From Candidatus Nitrosopumilus sp. (GTDB lineage: Archaea; Thermoproteota; Nitrososphaeria; Nitrososphaerales; Nitrosopumilaceae): 57,452 nt of DNA. The translations under genes and the position numbers were made by a program. Shown in pieces: positions 291-16,722 of the stretch; positions within the stretch are counted from its first letter, which is position 1, and each line of letters starts with the position of its first letter. The DNA lies in contig NZ_JANQTA010000025.1 of NCBI RefSeq assembly GCF_028278985.1, positions 1-57,452 of the forward strand. Direction: 5' to 3'. The notes beneath the pieces were generated by a model that was not told the origin of the DNA, did not search any database, and saw only the letters and a list, made by a program, of their open reading frames with translations.

Positions 291-515
291 TTATTGTTGT
301 AATTGTACTTTTTTCTGTTTATTTTTTCTTTGATTTTTATTTTTTCTACGTGGAGTTGTTCTAAGTATTGCTTTGCAACATGGACATCTGACACTTTCTG
401 GTTCAAAATAATATGAACAAAACGAACAGTACCGATGATTGTTAGAATATCTCAAAGCATTAGGCAATGGTTTTGCTTTAGTCAAATGACAAATCCCTTT
501 ACACATGTAGCCCAT
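291..515 (-). CDS. zinc-ribbon microprotein
   Basis: A 74-residue basic protein with a Cys-rich centre (CSFC, 12 residues, then CPCC) followed by an Arg/Lys/Gln-rich tail. The cysteine pairs suggest a single structural zinc site, and the tail suggests nucleic-acid binding. The ATG at 515 overlaps the TAA of the transporter gene as TAATG, which argues for translational coupling and for this start rather than the in-frame upstream start at 602. It resembles the protein at 4442-4663: both have an N-terminal GxCK or GYCK-like motif, CxxC, then RCPCC, then a basic tail. Partner and function are unknown. Confidence 0.7.
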   Translation of the reverse strand: MGYMCKGICHLTKAKPLPNALRYSNNHRYCSFCSYYFEPESVRCPCCKAILRTTPRRKNKNQRKNKQKKVQLQQ

Positions 516-1927
516 TATGGCATCAGCGGAATTTGTAAGAAGACCATTATTGTTGCAAGAGCCATTGTTGGAATAGAAATTACTGCACCTGGCTTGATCC
601 ACTCCTTTAGAGTGATATGTCCTCTCTTTCGTCTCTCAAGCATTCCTATTGCAACAATGTTTGCTGTACTTCCAATTAGAGTAAGGTTTCCAAAGAACGT
701 TCCACTAAACAGCATAGCCCACCAAAACGGATAGTTGTCAACTCCCATGTCTCCAAACTCATGAACCACAGGAATGAAAGTGGCTACAGCCAATACATTA
801 TCCATTAATGCACTCAGAACACTTGTAATTGGAACAAAGATAAAGAACAGATTTGTGTCGTCGTTTCCACTAAGATCGTACAATCCTTCTGCAAGAACAG
901 TTGTCACTCCTAGCATTTTCATTGTTCCAACTGATGCAAATAAGAAAATGAAGAAAGCCAGTGTCCACCAATCTACTCTTCTTTCTACCATCTCTCGTGC
1001 TTTGCTATGATTTAGAAACAAAACAATTCCTGCAGCAGCAAAGGCTACCCCTGGAAGAAGAACATTTTTCTCAAGACCCAAGGCTTCTTCCATTGGACCA
1101 TGAGAAACAAGTGCTGCAATCGTTCCTAGAAATATTATCCAGGGAATCTTAAAACTTGTTTTAGTTACTTCTTGAACTCCAGAAGATTCTTCAACTGCAA
1201 TTACTTCTTGCTCTACAATCTGTTTTGTTGATTTTCCTTTCAGAGCATCTCCCATTTCAGAAATGTATTTTCTAAAGTAGACTAGACATATTGGAATAGC
1301 TACTGCCAATCCTGCAATTGAAATTGGTGTTGCCCATCTCAAAAATTCCATAAATGTGAGATCTGCTCGCATTGCAATTAGAACTCCAACTGGATTGCCA
1401 ACTACTGTTGCACTACTACCAATATTGGTAGCAAACACTGTCATCATCACTAATGGAATTGCACTGATTCTGAGCTTTCCAGTTAGATGCAAAACCGTTG
1501 CAGTCATAAACAAAATAGATGTTACTTCATCAACTAGTGCTGCAAATAATGCAGACATTAACATCAAAACGACAACTAACTTTATTGGATTGTTTCCAAC
1601 TCCTCGCATAATTTTTGCAAGAAGATGCTCAAAGAATTTTTTCTCCTCCAAGAATCCAACTACTATCATCATTCCTACCAAAAATAGAATCATGTCAAAT
1701 CCTGCAAATTCTATCATAGTAGAAGTGTCTAGAAGGCCTAATCCTAGCATAATTGCAATTCCAACTAGTGCAAATGCTAGCCTGAATCTCCAAAAAAGCA
1801 GAGTTCCGACAATCAATGATGCAAATACAGTTACTGAAGCAATTTGCTCAGGATTCAAGCCTGCAAAACTAACTGTAATTGCTATGGCAGCTAGGATGAA
1901 TGGATACAGATAATGATTTTTTATCAT
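515..1927 (-). CDS. SLC13/ArsB/NhaD-type membrane ion transporter
   Basis: A 470-residue polytopic membrane protein with about 11-12 hydrophobic segments. It belongs to the ion transporter superfamily that includes ArsB, CitMHS and NhaD. Two similar halves can be seen, each with a re-entrant type sequence: DEVTSILFMTATVLHL followed by ATNIGSSATVVGNPVG in the first, and ALMDNVLAVATFIPVV followed by NLTLIGSTANIVA in the second. These are the usual substrate and cation binding hairpins of the family. A charged cytoplasmic loop of about 40 residues (near residues 225-265) separates the halves. The substrate (Na+/H+, arsenite or an organic anion) cannot be told from sequence. It is the fifth gene of a coupled operon, sharing one base with both neighbours. 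Confidence 0.85.
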   Translation of the reverse strand: MIKNHYLYPFILAAIAITVSFAGLNPEQIASVTVFASLIVGTLLFWRFRLAFALVGIAIMLGLGLLDTSTMIEFAGFDMILFLVGMMIVVGFLEEKKFFEHLLAKIMRGVGNNPIKLVVVLMLMSALFAALVDEVTSILFMTATVLHLTGKLRISAIPLVMMTVFATNIGSSATVVGNPVGVLIAMRADLTFMEFLRWATPISIAGLAVAIPICLVYFRKYISEMGDALKGKSTKQIVEQEVIAVEESSGVQEVTKTSFKIPWIIFLGTIAALVSHGPMEEALGLEKNVLLPGVAFAAAGIVLFLNHSKAREMVERRVDWWTLAFFIFLFASVGTMKMLGVTTVLAEGLYDLSGNDDTNLFFIFVPITSVLSALMDNVLAVATFIPVVHEFGDMGVDNYPFWWAMLFSGTFFGNLTLIGSTANIVAIGMLERRKRGHITLKEWIKPGAVISIPTMALATIMVFLQIPLMP

Positions 1928-2127
1928 TAGTTTACCTCAGGTTTTGATTCAATCTGAATGTGAGAGTTGTTCTTTACAATCCATACTTGAAAACCTGAGT
2001 CAATTAACATCTCAAAAACATCCTTCCAAGGAAATTTTTCAGAGTTTAGAACTAGGATCTCATATCCGCCATAATCCTCAAAAATTTTACCTTCTGTACC
2101 TATCTTGGTTCGTAATTTCTCTAGCAT
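1927..2127 (-). CDS. small conserved protein between USP and transporter genes
   Basis: A 66-residue soluble protein with an alpha/beta pattern and no membrane segment. I do not recognise the family. The pattern (EDYGGYEILVLNSEKFPWKDVFEMLIDSGFQVWIVKNN) suggests a small domain of two strands and a helix. Its ATG follows the TAG of the stress-protein gene directly, and its stop overlaps the transporter start. The three genes are therefore made from one message, and the protein may be an accessory or regulator of the transporter. That role is inferred from position only. Confidence 0.7.
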   Translation of the reverse strand: MLEKLRTKIGTEGKIFEDYGGYEILVLNSEKFPWKDVFEMLIDSGFQVWIVKNNSHIQIESKPEVN

Positions 2128-2595
2128 CTATTTTTCTCCATCAATTAGCATAATGGGGCAGGCAATCTCTTCGAGTACCTTACGTGATACACTTCCTAGC
2201 TTCAAAATTGCCTTGAATCCTGGAAGCTTTTTGCGTTTTGCCATGACAATTAAATCATAATTTTCATAGTTTGCAATTCGTGAAATCTCTTCTTCAGGAT
2301 ATCCGTGAAGAACTTTAACACTTGTAGGAATTTCATCTGCTCTTAGCTTTTTTGCTAGATGCTCCATTTTTTTATGCATCTCCAGTTTCATCTCTCTTCT
2401 AGCTGCAGACAATTGTTTTGCCCATTCTTTTCTCTCAATACTAAATGTGACAAGTGGTGGTGTAGGAATTTGTTCTACTACATGCAAAATTGTAATTTTT
2501 GCACCATGTGCTTTTGCGACATTTTTTGCATGCTCTAATGCCTTGTTTCCAGCTTTTGTTCCTGCATGAGGAACTAGTATTTTCTTATACTCCAT
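2128..2595 (-). CDS. universal stress protein (UspA family)
   Basis: A 155-residue UspA-fold protein. It starts MEYKKILVPHAGT, the usual first strand with the nucleotide-contacting loop, and continues with KITILHVVEQIPTPP. Near the C-terminus, YDLIVMAKRKK, LGSVSRKVLEEIACPIMLI stands where ATP-binding members have GxxGxxxxGSVS. The Gly-rich part is reduced, so ATP binding is uncertain. The ATG at 2595 was chosen because the fold begins there; 14 more residues are open upstream from a non-ATG codon. It overlaps the preceding gene by 11 bases and is followed directly by the 66-residue gene. It may respond to the same stress as the linked transporter. Confidence 0.88.
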   Translation of the reverse strand: MEYKKILVPHAGTKAGNKALEHAKNVAKAHGAKITILHVVEQIPTPPLVTFSIERKEWAKQLSAARREMKLEMHKKMEHLAKKLRADEIPTSVKVLHGYPEEEISRIANYENYDLIVMAKRKKLPGFKAILKLGSVSRKVLEEIACPIMLIDGEK

Positions 2596-2971
2596 CACTG
2601 TCCTCTGAATTTTTGAATACTTTGATGGCCTTTGCAACTATCTCTTCAGTACTTGATTTAGGATTTACAGAAATTAACAGTAATTCATCATTTATTGGAA
2701 TTGATATCATCAATGCATTTTTTCTCTTTGAGGCAATGTAGTCAATTTCTCCAAGTGTCTCATCAAACTCTTTTCTCATTGAAACTTCAAGAACCATCTG
2801 CATGTACATCATTCTGCTCTTCTCTTCGGTCTCAAATGGGGTAATTTCGTTCCTAAAACCACCTGCAATTAGGTTTCCTAACTTGTTGATTATTCCAACA
2901 AAGCGAAATTGACTGTCTTCTAGCAGTTCTTCGCATCTTCTCTCATAGTTTTGAGTAATTTGTATCATCAT
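2585..2971 (-). CDS. DUF6659-like thaumarchaeal protein
   Basis: A 128-residue soluble protein of a type common in Nitrosopumilaceae, which I associate with DUF6659. Typical features are a helical N-terminus (YERRCEELLE), a glycine-containing middle (INKLGNLIAGGF) and a second half with MYMQMVLEVSMRKEFDE, then YIASKRKNALMISIP. Length and pattern fit a roadblock/profilin-like or sensor fold, but no biochemical role is known to me. The ATG at 2971 is preferred: a GGTGG motif lies 8 nt before it, and the base is shared with the TAA of the upstream 40-residue gene (TAATG). Confidence 0.75.
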   Translation of the reverse strand: MMIQITQNYERRCEELLEDSQFRFVGIINKLGNLIAGGFRNEITPFETEEKSRMMYMQMVLEVSMRKEFDETLGEIDYIASKRKNALMISIPINDELLLISVNPKSSTEEIVAKAIKVFKNSEDSDGV

Positions 2972-3093
2972 TAGTTTCCCACCAAATACCAAACAGCTAT
3001 TGCTTTAATTGAGATCACAGTACCGAACATCATTATTAGAAAAGAAGCGTCACGATCTTTTTTCATAATAGCTTTAATCAAATTTTGTTTCAT
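2971..3093 (-). CDS. 40-residue single-span membrane peptide
   Basis: A short reading frame from ATG at 3093 to TAA at 2971-2973. The protein begins MKQNLIKAIMKKDRD and ends in one hydrophobic stretch (ASFLIMMFGTVISIKAIAVW) followed by YLVGN. This is a positive N-terminus and one transmembrane helix. Its stop shares a base with the ATG of the DUF6659-like gene (TAATG), the same arrangement as elsewhere in this operon, which is the main reason to believe it is translated. It is the first gene of the six-gene operon. It may anchor or regulate the later products; that is inference. Confidence 0.6.
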   Translation of the reverse strand: MKQNLIKAIMKKDRDASFLIMMFGTVISIKAIAVWYLVGN

Positions 3094-3139
3094 TTTAAAA
3101 AAAGAAAAATGTCATAGCACAAACCACGTTTTTGCTATG
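3094..3139 (-). terminator. hairpin plus T-run in the leader of the transporter operon
   Basis: CATAGCA (3113-3119) and TGCTATG (3133-3139) form a perfect 7-bp stem with a 13-nt loop. On the minus strand the stem is followed by ACATTTTTCTTTTTTT, then the ATG at 3093. This is either a terminator for a short upstream transcript or an attenuator-like element in the operon leader. Archaeal termination depends mainly on the T-run, which is present. Confidence 0.45.
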
Positions 3140-3211
3140 AGATTTTTACTTTGTTTTCACCTCCGTGTATGAATCCATTGTTACTATATTCTCGTGATTA
3201 TAGATATAGTG

Positions 3212-3235
3212 GTAGCAACACAATGTAACACAAAA
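3212..3235 (+). repeat. 24-bp exact direct repeat, copy A
   Basis: This 24-bp sequence is identical to 4131-4154 and in the same orientation. Read on the minus strand it contains GTGTTAC and GTGTTGC, two near-identical heptamers 10 bp apart, which is one helical turn. It lies upstream of TATA-like sequence on both sides: ATAATATA at 3246-3253 toward the C2HC gene (plus), and TATATCTATA at about 3199-3208 (minus). It is probably a binding site for a regulator, possibly the ribbon-helix-helix protein encoded between the two copies. Confidence 0.7.
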
Positions 3236-3275
3236 TAATCTACATCATAATATACAAGAAAAACAAAAATTACTT

Positions 3276-3392
3276 ATGAAAAAATTTCAAACAGATGCTT
3301 TTGAATGTGAATGCGGCGTATCTTTTGATTCAAACAAGAAACTCTTAGAGCATAAGAAATGGCTTTGCGTTCTTGATTTGAAATGCAATTAA
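3276..3392 (+). CDS. 38-residue C2HC zinc-finger microprotein
   Basis: ATG at 3276 to TAA at 3390-3392. The core is FECECGVSFDSNKKLLEHKK followed by WLC, giving Cys-x1-Cys-x12-His-x4-Cys. This is a compact variant of the classical C2H2 finger, with the conserved Phe and Leu core positions present. A TATA-like ATAATATA ends about 23 nt before the ATG, which fits a leaderless message, and the 24-bp repeat copy A lies just upstream of that. It is too short to be found by length alone, but the intact finger pattern, promoter and repeat support it. DNA, RNA or protein binding are all possible. Confidence 0.6.
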   Translation: MKKFQTDAFECECGVSFDSNKKLLEHKKWLCVLDLKCN

Positions 3393-3397
3393 TGATA

Positions 3398-3931
3398 CTA
3401 TTCGTGTGGAAAAGTCAATTTGATTGTATTTTTAGTTGATTTGACATCTAGTCTTTTTTGGACAATGTCATGAAACAACTCTGTCACAAGTGTTTTAACA
3501 TACAATGACCATTTTTCTCCAAGATCATGATTGATTCTAAAGATATAGCCGTCTTTTGTTTTTGCAACATCATGCTGCATCCATGCAACATAGATCCAAG
3601 ATCTTAGAATCTCAATAAAATCCTCAACAGTATATTCTCCTTTCATAAAATTCAAAATATCTGAAAAAGTGTCTTTTTCTACTTCTTCAGCAAGATGAAC
3701 AATCTCTTCGTTCTTCATTTTGTTAATGGCATGCTCAACAAAGGGCTTTGTCATGGGTAAAAGACCCAATTTTCTCTCATATCTCTCCCATAGAATGTGA
3801 TTTGAGAGGATTTTTGAGACAAGGGAGTTGACATTAGTCTTTTCAAGTTCAGCATCACGCTTTATCTCATCAATTAGGTCAGGATCGAGCCTAAATGACA
3901 TTGTTTTACTTTTCTTCTTCATTTCATCCAT
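3398..3931 (-). CDS. ribbon-helix-helix regulator with C-terminal sensor-like domain
   Basis: A 177-residue protein. Residues about 9-45 (KTMSFRLDPDLIDEIKRDAE and on through NSLVSKIL) form a ribbon-helix-helix domain like CopG/Arc: one beta strand that reads the DNA groove, then two helices. The remaining 130 residues are an alpha/beta domain with no metal-binding cluster that I recognise, ending in strands (YIFRINHDLGEKWSLYVKTL, then NTIKLTF). Many thaumarchaeal regulators have this architecture. The gene is flanked by the two exact copies of the 24-bp repeat, whose 10-bp periodic half-sites suit the way such proteins bind tandem operators. The ligand is unknown. Confidence 0.75.
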   Translation of the reverse strand: MDEMKKKSKTMSFRLDPDLIDEIKRDAELEKTNVNSLVSKILSNHILWERYERKLGLLPMTKPFVEHAINKMKNEEIVHLAEEVEKDTFSDILNFMKGEYTVEDFIEILRSWIYVAWMQHDVAKTKDGYIFRINHDLGEKWSLYVKTLVTELFHDIVQKRLDVKSTKNTIKLTFPHE

Positions 3932-4033
3932 TCTACTACGTTATGCTGATTTAGGCTATAAGGAATGTGTCAATTCTTATCTTATGCATCATCTTAACTT
4001 GTCACCATCCTTTACTAATGTTAAAAGCACAAA

Positions 4034-4087
4034 CTAGTGATTCTTTTTGATTTTGTTTCTCATTGCCACTTTTTGTATTTTTTTCAT
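4034..4087 (-). CDS. 17-residue basic leader-like peptide
   Basis: ATG at 4087 to TAG at 4034-4036, encoding a very basic peptide (MKKIQKVAMRNKIKKNH). A full Shine-Dalgarno sequence GAGGTGA (4092-4098) stands 4 nt before the ATG. A TATA-like CTATCTTATC (about 4121-4130) directly follows repeat copy B on this strand. Most genes here appear leaderless, so a perfect ribosome-binding site on so short a frame is unusual. It lies 100 bp upstream of the ribbon-helix-helix gene on the same strand and could be a leader peptide. It may also be chance. Confidence 0.35.
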   Translation of the reverse strand: MKKIQKVAMRNKIKKNH

Positions 4088-4130
4088 TAATTCACCTCAT
4101 AGTCATTTAGTGAAAATAACTGATAAGATA

Positions 4131-4154
4131 GTAGCAACACAATGTAACACAAAA
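4131..4154 (+). repeat. 24-bp exact direct repeat, copy B
   Basis: Identical over 24 bases to 3212-3235. On the minus strand it is followed immediately by TATCTTATC, a plausible TATA box for the 17-codon frame and perhaps for the ribbon-helix-helix gene. On the plus strand the nearest gene is the zinc-ribbon pair at 4260, whose own TATA box (TTTAAATC, 4230-4237) is about 75 bp further on. The 328-bp stretch 3932-4259 otherwise holds only the 17-codon frame and a 14-bp tandem duplication. Confidence 0.7.
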
Positions 4155-4192
4155 ATAATTTTTAATTTCTATTCTAAAAACTTAGAAAAAAT

Positions 4193-4220
4193 AGCTCAGT
4201 CTAATTAGCTCTTTCTAATT
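4193..4220 (+). repeat. 14-bp tandem duplication upstream of zinc-ribbon pair
   Basis: AGCTCAGTCTAATT is followed directly by AGCTCTTTCTAATT, differing at two positions. The pair lies just upstream of the TATA-like TTTAAATC (4230-4237) of the gene at 4260. It could be a tandem regulator site. Confidence 0.4.
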
Positions 4221-4259
4221 TTCACATTGTTTAAATCAAAAAATGTCTTACTATAATTA

Positions 4260-4442
4260 ATGAGAATTGATTCATGCAGAAAATGTGGCATGGAATTAGA
4301 AGTTCACAAAAAATGTGAAGTATGTGGAGATGCAATACAATTTTTCTGCCACAAATGTGGAAACATTTCAGATGAACAAATTCATTCAGTTTGTTATCTT
4401 GTAAACATGAACCGTAATTTACTACAAGCAAGTGTTGCATAA
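4260..4442 (+). CDS. zinc-ribbon microprotein (double CxxC)
   Basis: A 60-residue protein starting MRIDSCRKCGMELEVHKKCEV. It has CRKC, CEVC, then CHKC and a later Cys/His, that is three CxxC knuckles in the first 35 residues, enough for one or two zinc sites. It resembles the rubredoxin-like zinc ribbons used as small adaptor or RNA-binding modules. TTTAAATC ends 23 nt before the ATG, consistent with a leaderless message. The stop overlaps the next ATG as TAATG, so the two zinc proteins are coupled. The specific function is unknown. Confidence 0.65.
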   Translation: MRIDSCRKCGMELEVHKKCEVCGDAIQFFCHKCGNISDEQIHSVCYLVNMNRNLLQASVA

Positions 4443-4720: not shown

Positions 4721-5137
4721 ATGAGATATTCAATGGCTGACATTTTTTCTCCTGAAAAAAGATCATGGGTCATGTCTAGAATCAGGGGAACAAACACAAA
4801 AATCGATCTTCAAATGAATGAAATTCTCAAGGGTCTGGGCTTTGCATACAAAATGTATCCGAAGATGTATGGGAATCCTGACTTTATACTTGAGGAGCAG
4901 AAGATTGCAATATTCTGTGACGGTGATTTTTGGCACGGCTACAATTATCAAAACAAGAAAAAGCCTTCCAAAAAATACTGGAGGGACAAGATAGAGAAGA
5001 ACATGAAAAGGGATGCACAAGTTACACGAAGACTGAGAAGGGATGGATGGTCTGTACTGAGAATTTGGGAGCATGACATTGAAAAGAGAACTGGAGTATG
5101 CATAGACAGGATTATTGGAAAGATTCTGGAAAAATAA
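4721..5137 (+). CDS. vsr: Vsr-like very short patch repair endonuclease
   Basis: A 138-residue nuclease of the Vsr/PD-(D/E)xK group, close to the usual length. The family N-terminus is clear (FSPEKRSWVMSRIRGTNTK), followed by GNPDFIL with the catalytic Asp54, then IAIFCDGDFWHGY and a C-terminal RRDGWSVLRIWEHDI. Vsr nicks DNA 5' of T in T:G mismatches made by cytosine deamination. The position of the E. coli catalytic His is Asp here (CDGD), and the zinc-binding Cys of GCFWH is also Asp, so chemistry or metal use may differ. No cytosine methylase is next to it. GAATTAATTC at 4691-4700 fits a TATA box for the ATG at 4721. It was probably acquired from bacteria (inference). Confidence 0.88.
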   Translation: MRYSMADIFSPEKRSWVMSRIRGTNTKIDLQMNEILKGLGFAYKMYPKMYGNPDFILEEQKIAIFCDGDFWHGYNYQNKKKPSKKYWRDKIEKNMKRDAQVTRRLRRDGWSVLRIWEHDIEKRTGVCIDRIIGKILEK

Positions 5138-12872: not shown

Positions 12873-13526
12873 ATGGCAAAGAAAAAAGATTCTCTTATTG
12901 ATGAAGCAGAAAAAATAAAGGCAGAACTTGATGAATTAAAAAAGAAAAAGAAGGTTTTAGATTCAAAGAAAACAACAAAGAAAGCTGAAGCCAAACCAGC
13001 AAAGAAAACAACAAAGAAAGCTGAAGCCAAACCAGCAAAAGAAAAAAAATTAACCAAAAAAGAAATTGAAGAAGCCAAAAAAGAAGCTGAAAAAACTCTA
13101 GAAGAAGAATTAGAAGAACAACTTTCTGATGAAGAAATTGAAAATTTCCAAATTGAAAAAGTTGACATGGAAAGATTGACAAACAAAGTTTGTGATATTT
13201 TGGCAGAACGTGAATCTGATGGGATGTTCCAAAGTGAACTTTGGAAAAAATTAAAATTAACTAGTCGAGATGGTTCAAGACTTGCATTAAAACTAGAACG
13301 AATGGGAACCATTAACCGTGAAAAAATTCTTGAAAAAGGTAGATGGACTTACAAACTAATTTTAAAGAAAACTCCAATTAGTACTCAATCAATTGAAAAT
13401 GCACCATGTTTGGTATGTCCTGTTGAACAAAAATGTTCATTGGAAGGAGAAATTAGTCCTCGTAATTGCCAATTCATAGAAGATTGGGTTATTGCTGAAA
13501 TGAAAAAACCTGCGAAGGCCAAATGA
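12873..13526 (+). CDS. archaeal RPC34 orthologue with Fe-S motif
   Basis: A 217-residue protein. Its first about 90 residues are a Lys/Glu-rich coiled coil containing an exact 12-residue duplication (KKTTKKAEAKPA). A winged-helix domain follows (MERLTNKVCDILAERE to GRWTYKLIL). Near the C-terminus comes CLVCP, six residues, C, nine residues, C, including GEISPRNC. This matches the cluster-binding end of eukaryotic RNA polymerase III subunit RPC34/RPC39, known to have orthologues in Thermoproteota and Thaumarchaeota. It probably assists RNA polymerase on some promoters. The ATG at 12873, after GGTGAT, is preferred to the TTG at 12861. Its stop overlaps the rlmE start. Confidence 0.85.
   Translation: MAKKKDSLIDEAEKIKAELDELKKKKKVLDSKKTTKKAEAKPAKKTTKKAEAKPAKEKKLTKKEIEEAKKEAEKTLEEELEEQLSDEEIENFQIEKVDMERLTNKVCDILAERESDGMFQSELWKKLKLTSRDGSRLALKLERMGTINREKILEKGRWTYKLILKKTPISTQSIENAPCLVCPVEQKCSLEGEISPRNCQFIEDWVIAEMKKPAKAK
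12966..13037 (+). repeat. 36-bp exact tandem duplication inside the RPC34 gene
   Basis: Bases 12966-13001 and 13002-13037 are identical and encode KKTTKKAEAKPA twice. The identity at third positions indicates a recent in-frame duplication in the disordered N-terminal extension. Confidence 0.9.
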
Positions 13527-15928: not shown

Positions 15929-16722
15929 CTTTTGAATTTTGCAATTACCATCCCATGATCTTTATCATATGGATGCAAATCAATTGATTGAATGATTTCA
16001 AATTTGCTTTTTAATTTTTCAATTTCTTCCTCAATAATTTTTTTTGGTGATTTTGTTACATCTATACTTCGTGTTTTAATTACCAAGAAAAAGAAACCTC
16101 CTTTTTTCAAAAACATTTCACAATTTTCAATAGCTATTTTTGTTTGGTCAGGTTGAGCAATGTCAACATAAACCACATCTACTTTCCCAAAAACAGAAAA
16201 ATATTCAGATGGTTTTCTAGCATCTTGTAAAATTGGAATAATGTTTTTTCGATAAGATGCAACTCTATCTAAAAAATCTCTTGCCACTCTACTTGCATGC
16301 TCTACACCAAAAACAATTCCACTTGGACCTACAATGTCTGAAATATGACTAACAGTTGTTCCTGTAGATGCACCTAGATACAGAATTTTAGATTTATTTT
16401 GGAATGGAAATTCATCTAATCCATTCATTATTGATGCAGCTAATTTACTCCTAAATGGATCCCATAATCTGTATTCAATTCCTTTTTTTGTAACTAGTTT
16501 TTCTTTGTAAACTTGATTGCCTGGAACTAAATTTTCAGTAGCAAGTTTTCTTTCACCATCTGACTTTATCCAGAAAAAAGATTGATTATCTTCTTCCAAA
16601 CTTCTTTCTCTTTTTGTTTTTATTATTTGAATCTGGTCTGTCTCTATTCTTTCTACCTTGATATCTGGAATCTCCACTTTCTCTTCTTCCACCTCTATCA
16701 TCTCTTCTTCCACCTCTATCAT
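15925..16722 (-). CDS. flpA: fibrillarin-like rRNA/tRNA 2'-O-methyltransferase
   Basis: A fibrillarin of about 265 residues, the catalytic subunit of archaeal box C/D snoRNP-like complexes. The core from SDGERKLATENLVPGNQVYK onward is canonical, with the SAM loop ILYLGASTGTTVSHISD, then GVEHASRVARDFL, VDVVYVDIAQPDQ and GGFFFLVIKTRS. The N-terminus lies inside the nop5 gene in another frame and consists of an acidic repeat MIEVEEE. ATGs at 16743, 16722 and 16701 and a GTG at 16776 are possible. I chose 16722 because GAGGTGG stands 8 nt before it; 16701 has the same site. This acidic extension is not usual for archaeal fibrillarin. Confidence 0.88.
   Translation of the reverse strand: MIEVEEEMIEVEEEKVEIPDIKVERIETDQIQIIKTKRERSLEEDNQSFFWIKSDGERKLATENLVPGNQVYKEKLVTKKGIEYRLWDPFRSKLAASIMNGLDEFPFQNKSKILYLGASTGTTVSHISDIVGPSGIVFGVEHASRVARDFLDRVASYRKNIIPILQDARKPSEYFSVFGKVDVVYVDIAQPDQTKIAIENCEMFLKKGGFFFLVIKTRSIDVTKSPKKIIEEEIEKLKSKFEIIQSIDLHPYDKDHGMVIAKFKS

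Follow-up and report, generated by a model that had tools for sequence, protein, structure and literature searches.

Among the known systems closest to the one described here is that of TFB-RF1 from Pyrococcus furiosus (PMC5937170), in which, according to the excerpt of that paper on which we draw, a small regulator controls its own operon through a motif that immediately precedes a weak BRE and TATA box at conserved spacing, the motif being conserved together with the regulator across genomes. Our system would share these traits; the TFB-RF1 motif is, however, one 13-nt palindrome (TCTGAANTTCAGA), whereas the element described here has two or three heptads at a 10-bp pitch and is paired with a ribbon-helix-helix (RHH) protein. 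Binding of RHH dimers to 7-bp repeats in direct or inverted order is described for ParB (omega) of pSM19035 (PMC9499535, excerpt), and, as in the omega repeats, heptad 1 of our element occurs in either orientation (GTGTTAC, GTAACAC); the omega heptads are contiguous and serve plasmid partition, whereas ours have a 3-bp spacer and a 10-bp pitch and are tied to a TATA box. CdrS and CdrL of haloarchaea (PMC7439475) are likewise archaeal RHH regulators, but CdrL, in the excerpted part of that paper, binds a single locus and carries a double zinc ribbon rather than the C-terminal domain found here. A copper-limitation motif of Nitrososphaera viennensis (PMC7785015, excerpt) is similar in being a shared upstream motif, present in either orientation, in an ammonia-oxidising archaeon, but its consensus TTCSGSMTTTGWACYANT, compared by reading, differs from GTGTTACATTGTGTTGC in our system. 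A search of open-licence papers, covering titles and the starts of abstracts, found no report of the motif or of the RHH regulon.

The window, by which we mean the whole 57,452-nucleotide stretch analysed, is contig C23 of a 1.69-Mb genome and contains GTAGCAACACAATGTAACACAAAA twice, at 3212-3235 (copy A) and 4131-4154 (copy B). The two copies agree in every base and run in the same direction, and the 24-bp match is maximal, the outer neighbouring bases differing between copies (left G/A, right T/A). In 60 dinucleotide shuffles of the window, direct repeats reached at most 21 bases, against the 24 observed, and all other repeats of at least 20 bases are simple arrays, near both ends, at 12964-13000 and at 16680-16722. 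Both contig ends (1-180 and 57359-57452) consist of tandem repeats of ~12 bases and are possible assembly stop points. Read on the minus strand, the 24-mer has the layout of a promoter element, GTGTTAC-ATT-GTGTTGC-TAC-N3-TATATC, and the gene of an RHH protein lies between the two copies:

3215..3231, minus strand: predicted operator of copy A, with heptads GTGTTAC (3225-3231) and GTGTTGC (3215-3221) at a pitch of 10 bp
3203..3208, minus strand: TATA box TATATC of copy A, 6 bp (TAC and three free bases) past heptad 2, a spacing fixed in the pooled sites described below
4134..4150, minus strand: predicted operator of copy B, with heptads GTGTTAC (4144-4150) and GTGTTGC (4134-4140)
4122..4127, minus strand: TATA-like box CTTATC of copy B, 6 bp past heptad 2
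3398..3931, minus strand: RHH regulator and candidate binder (177 aa), with a CopG/Arc-like N-terminus and a C-terminal alpha/beta domain, downstream of copy B

A preliminary description of this DNA had reported the exact codirectional repeat, the near-identical minus-strand heptamers 10 bp apart and a TATA-like sequence after both copies, and all three were recovered at these positions, with TATATC following copy A and CTTATC following copy B, each after 6 bp. That description had further proposed a local regulon of small zinc proteins and had noted that many copies unrelated to promoters would speak against it. Searching the genome with GTGTTACNNNGTGTTRC at up to one mismatch gave 11 sites (four exact, seven with one mismatch): contig C20 carries seven (76-90 kb), the window two, and C8 and C3 one each. 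A TATATC, TATATT or TTATC box is present 6 bp past heptad 2 in eight of them; the other three (C20:85141, C20:85356 and C3:29777) have no TATA box. Many promoter-unrelated copies were thus not found, but the regulon is not local, since promoter-like sites are spread over three contigs. Scanning with a matrix revealed additional weaker sites on C20, including two at 80381 and 81476 on either side of a second RHH copy. A viral origin found no support, as viral_contigs contained no exact match to GTRTTRCATTGTRTTGCTAC.

Several other observations were made in these regions. At C20:78230-78236, two overlapping sites on opposite strands (17.0 and 16.5 bits) are located just upstream of the gene for a 180-aa predicted membrane protein. 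The window contains a second repeated promoter-like element at 4175-4237 (AGCTCAGTCTAATTAGCTC...), preceding a zinc ORF at 4260-4442; similar stretches occur at C20:93124-93247, C3:136613-136664 and C8:10914-10973, the C20 stretch lying near a paralogous zinc ORF and the C8 stretch near a TFB gene. A Vsr-like endonuclease gene (4721-5137; PF03852, 1.2e-21) adjoins the zinc ORFs of the window.

To describe the promoter anatomy, we pooled 40 sites (36 distinct 29-mers) from 35 scanned loci, whose consensus is GTRTTACATTGTGTTGCTAC-N3-TATATC. Nearly invariant are positions 1, 2 and 7 in heptad 1 and positions 1, 2, 4, 5, 6 and 7 in heptad 2; GT..RC of both heptads and TATATC are strongly conserved, while the centre of heptad 1 varies and appears in the inverted form GTAACAC in one site each of genomes G275 and G372. 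Three successive heptads are present in G034. The gapless 7-bp repeats of omega-type operators were not found in the pooled sites, which have the 3-bp spacer; instead, as in TFB-RF1-like activators, the motif stands at a conserved distance just upstream of BRE/TATA (GTRTTGC-TAC-N3-TATATC). An ATG follows 22-25 bases past the TATA box in 30 of the 40 sites, compared with 0.79 ATG per position elsewhere. A TATA box lies ~26 bases before the transcription start, so with this spacing the transcripts would be leaderless.

Next, we asked how the element and the RHH gene are distributed. The nearest RHH proteins belong to Nitrosopumilus, Nitrosarchaeum and other thaumarchaeal MAGs; judged by these relatives, the host would be an ammonia-oxidising archaeon resembling Nitrosopumilus. 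Among 61 relatives, the element is present in eight genomes, including all six with a close RHH protein (at least 66% identity); the other two, G018 and G037, have the element without a close RHH protein. Across 400 genomes of the order, we found 34 element sites in 20 genomes, against four sites for a reversed control pattern, and a close RHH protein in 25 genomes: 16 have both, four the element only (G018, G189, G316 and G341), nine the RHH protein only and 371 neither (Fisher 6e-19, uncorrected for relatedness). In G018, a site is duplicated in tandem together with the flank upstream of it (locus L059, G018:C3:137377), and the nearest RHH copies are broken or weak. Several of the nine RHH-only genomes have a variant site adjoining the gene (G372, G138 and G325), and in G145, G198, G107 and G204 a variant with GTAATGC as second heptad lies beside it. 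The RHH strand of G204 (L140) reads KSQVSTLRL, against KTKTVSFRL or similar in the others, a suggestive co-change with the operator variant, though a single instance.

Of 28 close-RHH loci, 22 have the RHH gene no more than 500-600 bp from a site that scores 14 or higher, the exceptions being G101a, G173, G176, G192, G204 and G227; the figure is in part circular, as many of these Nitrosopumilaceae loci had gone into the matrix (the family called f1 by our tool, taken from its relatives to be Nitrosopumilaceae). A held-out set unused for the matrix comprised 19 RHH loci of a second family (group f8, 44-53% identity), which includes the near-identical pairs L147/L154 and L152/L153. Here, 12 of 38 RHH flanks scored at p<0.05 against shuffles, while among control windows from these loci 9 of 169 did (Fisher 3e-5), and a score of at least 6 was reached in 10 of 38 flanks versus 2 of 169 control windows (Fisher 7e-7, at a threshold picked post hoc). 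The same scan gave 0 of 22 flanks at p<0.05 for RHH paralogs of 26-37% identity. In seven of the 19 loci, a C2H2 microprotein ORF lies just upstream of the RHH gene, preceded in L147, L149 and L154 by the 12-mer ACATTGTGTTGC. A site picked by eye in the f8 genus g60, ATGTTATATTGTGTTATTATAG, was dropped, as L124, L125, L126 and L128 showed no excess over shuffles (p 0.25-0.48). This comparison of genomes supports the earlier suggestion of a promoter-linked tandem-heptad operator, with the RHH protein as the best candidate for its binder.

On the RHH assignment of the protein, profile searches gave a mixed picture: all 12 family members match PF12441 (CopG antitoxin; best 2e-06) and PHROG matches are to Arc-like repressors at 4e-04, but the window protein, at 22.5 bits, falls below the Pfam curated RHH cut-off of 28. 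PDB sequence matches of the N-terminus included no RHH protein. An AlphaFold2 model from the 12 sequences has a mean pLDDT of 72.9, being poor at residues 1-14 (<50) and 45-59 and good from ~120, and gave no Foldseek match at E 0.001 or better. Aligning residues 45-177 with VIA-align returned a designed protein (Z 10.5), TPC6 and Bet3-Trs31 chains of TRAPP (8.9), BcsD (8.8) and H-NOX (8.7). Three histidines (His45, His120 and His135) are invariant across the 12 sequences. H-NOX sensors have the haem signature YxSxR, and we rejected an H-NOX identity of the C-terminal domain, as this signature is absent from all 12 members. Homology between V4R and Bet3 has been reported (PMC2253512, excerpt). 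The model thereby offers a lead, and we treat it as a lead only, to a C-terminal ligand-binding domain of the Bet3/V4R/H-NOX kind.

Taken together, we consider it likely that these sites define an autoregulated RHH regulon at operator-promoter units, probably activated from just upstream of BRE/TATA, which extends genome-wide and covers more than zinc proteins. What is read directly from sequence is the repeated element, its constant distance from TATA and ATG, its co-occurrence with the RHH gene and its reappearance next to RHH genes in a second family; binding, the sign of control, the extent of the operon and the signal to which the C-terminal domain would respond are inferences. The 24-mer would be the core of an operator-promoter unit with a TATA box at a fixed distance, and its pseudo-palindromic heptads, GTNNNRC and GTRTTGC, being 10 bp (one helical turn) apart, would present the same DNA face to tandem dimers of the RHH protein (3398-3931). 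Activation is the most likely effect, given that a position immediately ahead of BRE/TATA is the usual one for archaeal activators (PMC5937170, excerpt); the RHH protein may assist TFB or TBP in loading on the promoter.

Copy B faces the RHH gene and would mediate autoregulation, while the main promoter of copy A is directed into the minus-strand run 3093-291, away from a C2HC ORF on the plus strand. Counting ~eight such promoters genome-wide, the targets would form a stress or metal-homeostasis regulon. The features around copy A are as follows:

3146..3178, minus strand: leaderless 10-codon micro-ORF MDSYTEVKTK with internal GGAGGTG, with counterparts in several relatives
3097..3139, minus strand: leader hairpin CATAGCA...TGCTATG followed by a T-rich run (folding z -2.33; alignment A4)
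291..3093, minus strand: predicted operon behind copy A, its membership inferred from same-strand genes with close or overlapping ends and comprising the next six entries
2971-3093, minus strand: 40-aa ORF
2585-2971, minus strand: DUF6659
2128-2595, minus strand: universal stress protein (USP)
1927-2127, minus strand: 66-aa ORF
515-1927, minus strand: CitMHS permease
291-515, minus strand: zinc microprotein
3276..3392, plus strand: divergent gene of a C2HC zinc microprotein, its ATG separated from operator A by 44 bp

The preliminary description had placed copy A ahead of the promoter of the C2HC microprotein; the 44-bp gap between operator and ORF recurs on C20 of the same genome, in G372 and in G223 (there to the second Met). 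The ORF is absent beside the sites in G275, in G324 and at C20:81476; where it is present, a shared divergent control region is likely, and copy A would then probably act on the C2HC gene as well as on the DUF6659/USP/permease/zinc-protein run. On C20, zinc microproteins follow sites, as do another run of USP, 66-aa ORF and permease and a 50-aa ORF accompanied by a 46-aa ORF that is CopG-like on reading and has no Pfam match. In relatives, the first sizeable gene after a site often encodes this zinc microprotein (of the MAQTC.GLCERL type), DUF6659, a USP, a CBS-domain protein (a label given by reading, not by profile search) or a TFB. Zinc proteins are among the predicted targets, as had been proposed, but they share this place with USP, DUF6659, CitMHS permease, TFB, CopG-like and CBS-domain proteins in this genome or its relatives.

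A conserved order of elements, with which many transcripts would begin, namely a leaderless 10-codon ORF with GGAGG, a hairpin, a T-run and the first gene, is seen in the leaders of L053, L054, L055, L056, L058 and the window. No start codon lies at the usual distance behind GGAGG in the leaders of G002, G034 and the window copy A. The folding z averaged over 40 leaders is only about -1, and covariation of the hairpin is weak: in an 11-sequence alignment 92.7% of stem cells are paired, and 27-45 of 500 shuffles reach the observed values. Six sources were searched for a known RNA family matching the leader, and only a tRNA was found. One leader unit, at C20:79257, seemingly stands alone, facing a convergent USP gene.

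Other explanations account for parts of these data. The 24-mer might be a mobile or structural repeat, or have been copied along with the duplicated USP/permease segment: copy B shares its flanks with C8:5437 (92% over 127 bases), C20:82042 and C20:85141 share extended flanks, and three copies have no promoter. We reject this reading as very improbable, since the majority of copies share a fixed promoter geometry but differ in their flanks; the 29-bp unit is conserved amid varied flanks and varied downstream genes, its ATG spacing is fixed, and sites recur beside RHH genes in other genera. The fixed distance to TATA would suit an extended core promoter recognised by a TFB paralog specialised for it instead of the RHH protein, and TFB genes indeed follow sites in G304 and G324; ammonia-oxidising archaea have many TFBs, one of them in the C20 cluster (85571-86458). 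It is the distribution of TFBs in the 61 genomes that leads us to reject TFB as the reader and to regard this possibility as quite unlikely: the nearest relative of the C20 TFB in other genomes is in G013 (63%), which has no site, and the site-bearing G002, G012, G015, G034 and G036 hold only TFBs of 42-43%. The heptads also lie beyond the usual BRE.

Slightly less improbable, though still unlikely, is that the site is bound by another regulator of the same accessory module, such as the 46-aa CopG-like protein of C20, and that the RHH gene merely co-travels. Co-travelling modules co-occur regardless of role, and small CopG-like ORFs follow sites on C20, in G316 and in G324; yet targets vary by species, whereas 22 of 28 loci have the RHH gene next to the site, and 10 of the 19 second-family loci have a site scoring at least 6 beside the RHH gene. 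The main rival concerns the sign of control, with the RHH protein repressing its own gene and silencing stress genes until it is released by a ligand of its C-terminal domain, and we hold this to be a serious possibility, if a rather unlikely one. Many RHH proteins are repressors, the PHROG matches are Arc-like repressors, and the site is so placed that repression would also fit, as a dimer adjoining the BRE could clash with TFB. Against this stands the position of the sites upstream of BRE/TATA, where archaeal activators usually bind (PMC5937170, excerpt).

Pairs of regulator and operator are of a known kind; the variant lies in combining an RHH protein with this C-terminal domain, TATA-tied heptads at a 10-bp pitch and predicted leaderless micro-ORF transcripts. 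A broader reading, which we offer tentatively and consider doubtful, is a two-family stress regulon of ammonia-oxidising archaea, in which a one-component RHH regulator would sense a small ligand through its Bet3/V4R/H-NOX-like domain, the operator would be fused to the core promoter, and an attenuator-like arrangement of conserved GGAGG-bearing micro-ORF, hairpin and T-run at the start of leaderless transcripts would provide a second control at many targets. Ammonia-oxidising archaea are abundant nitrifiers, and to our knowledge little is known about their gene regulation. Sequence alone here yields a candidate regulator, base-level rules for its operator and a list of targets, each of them open to direct testing in vitro, and gives a functional context to unnamed zinc microproteins and to DUF6659.
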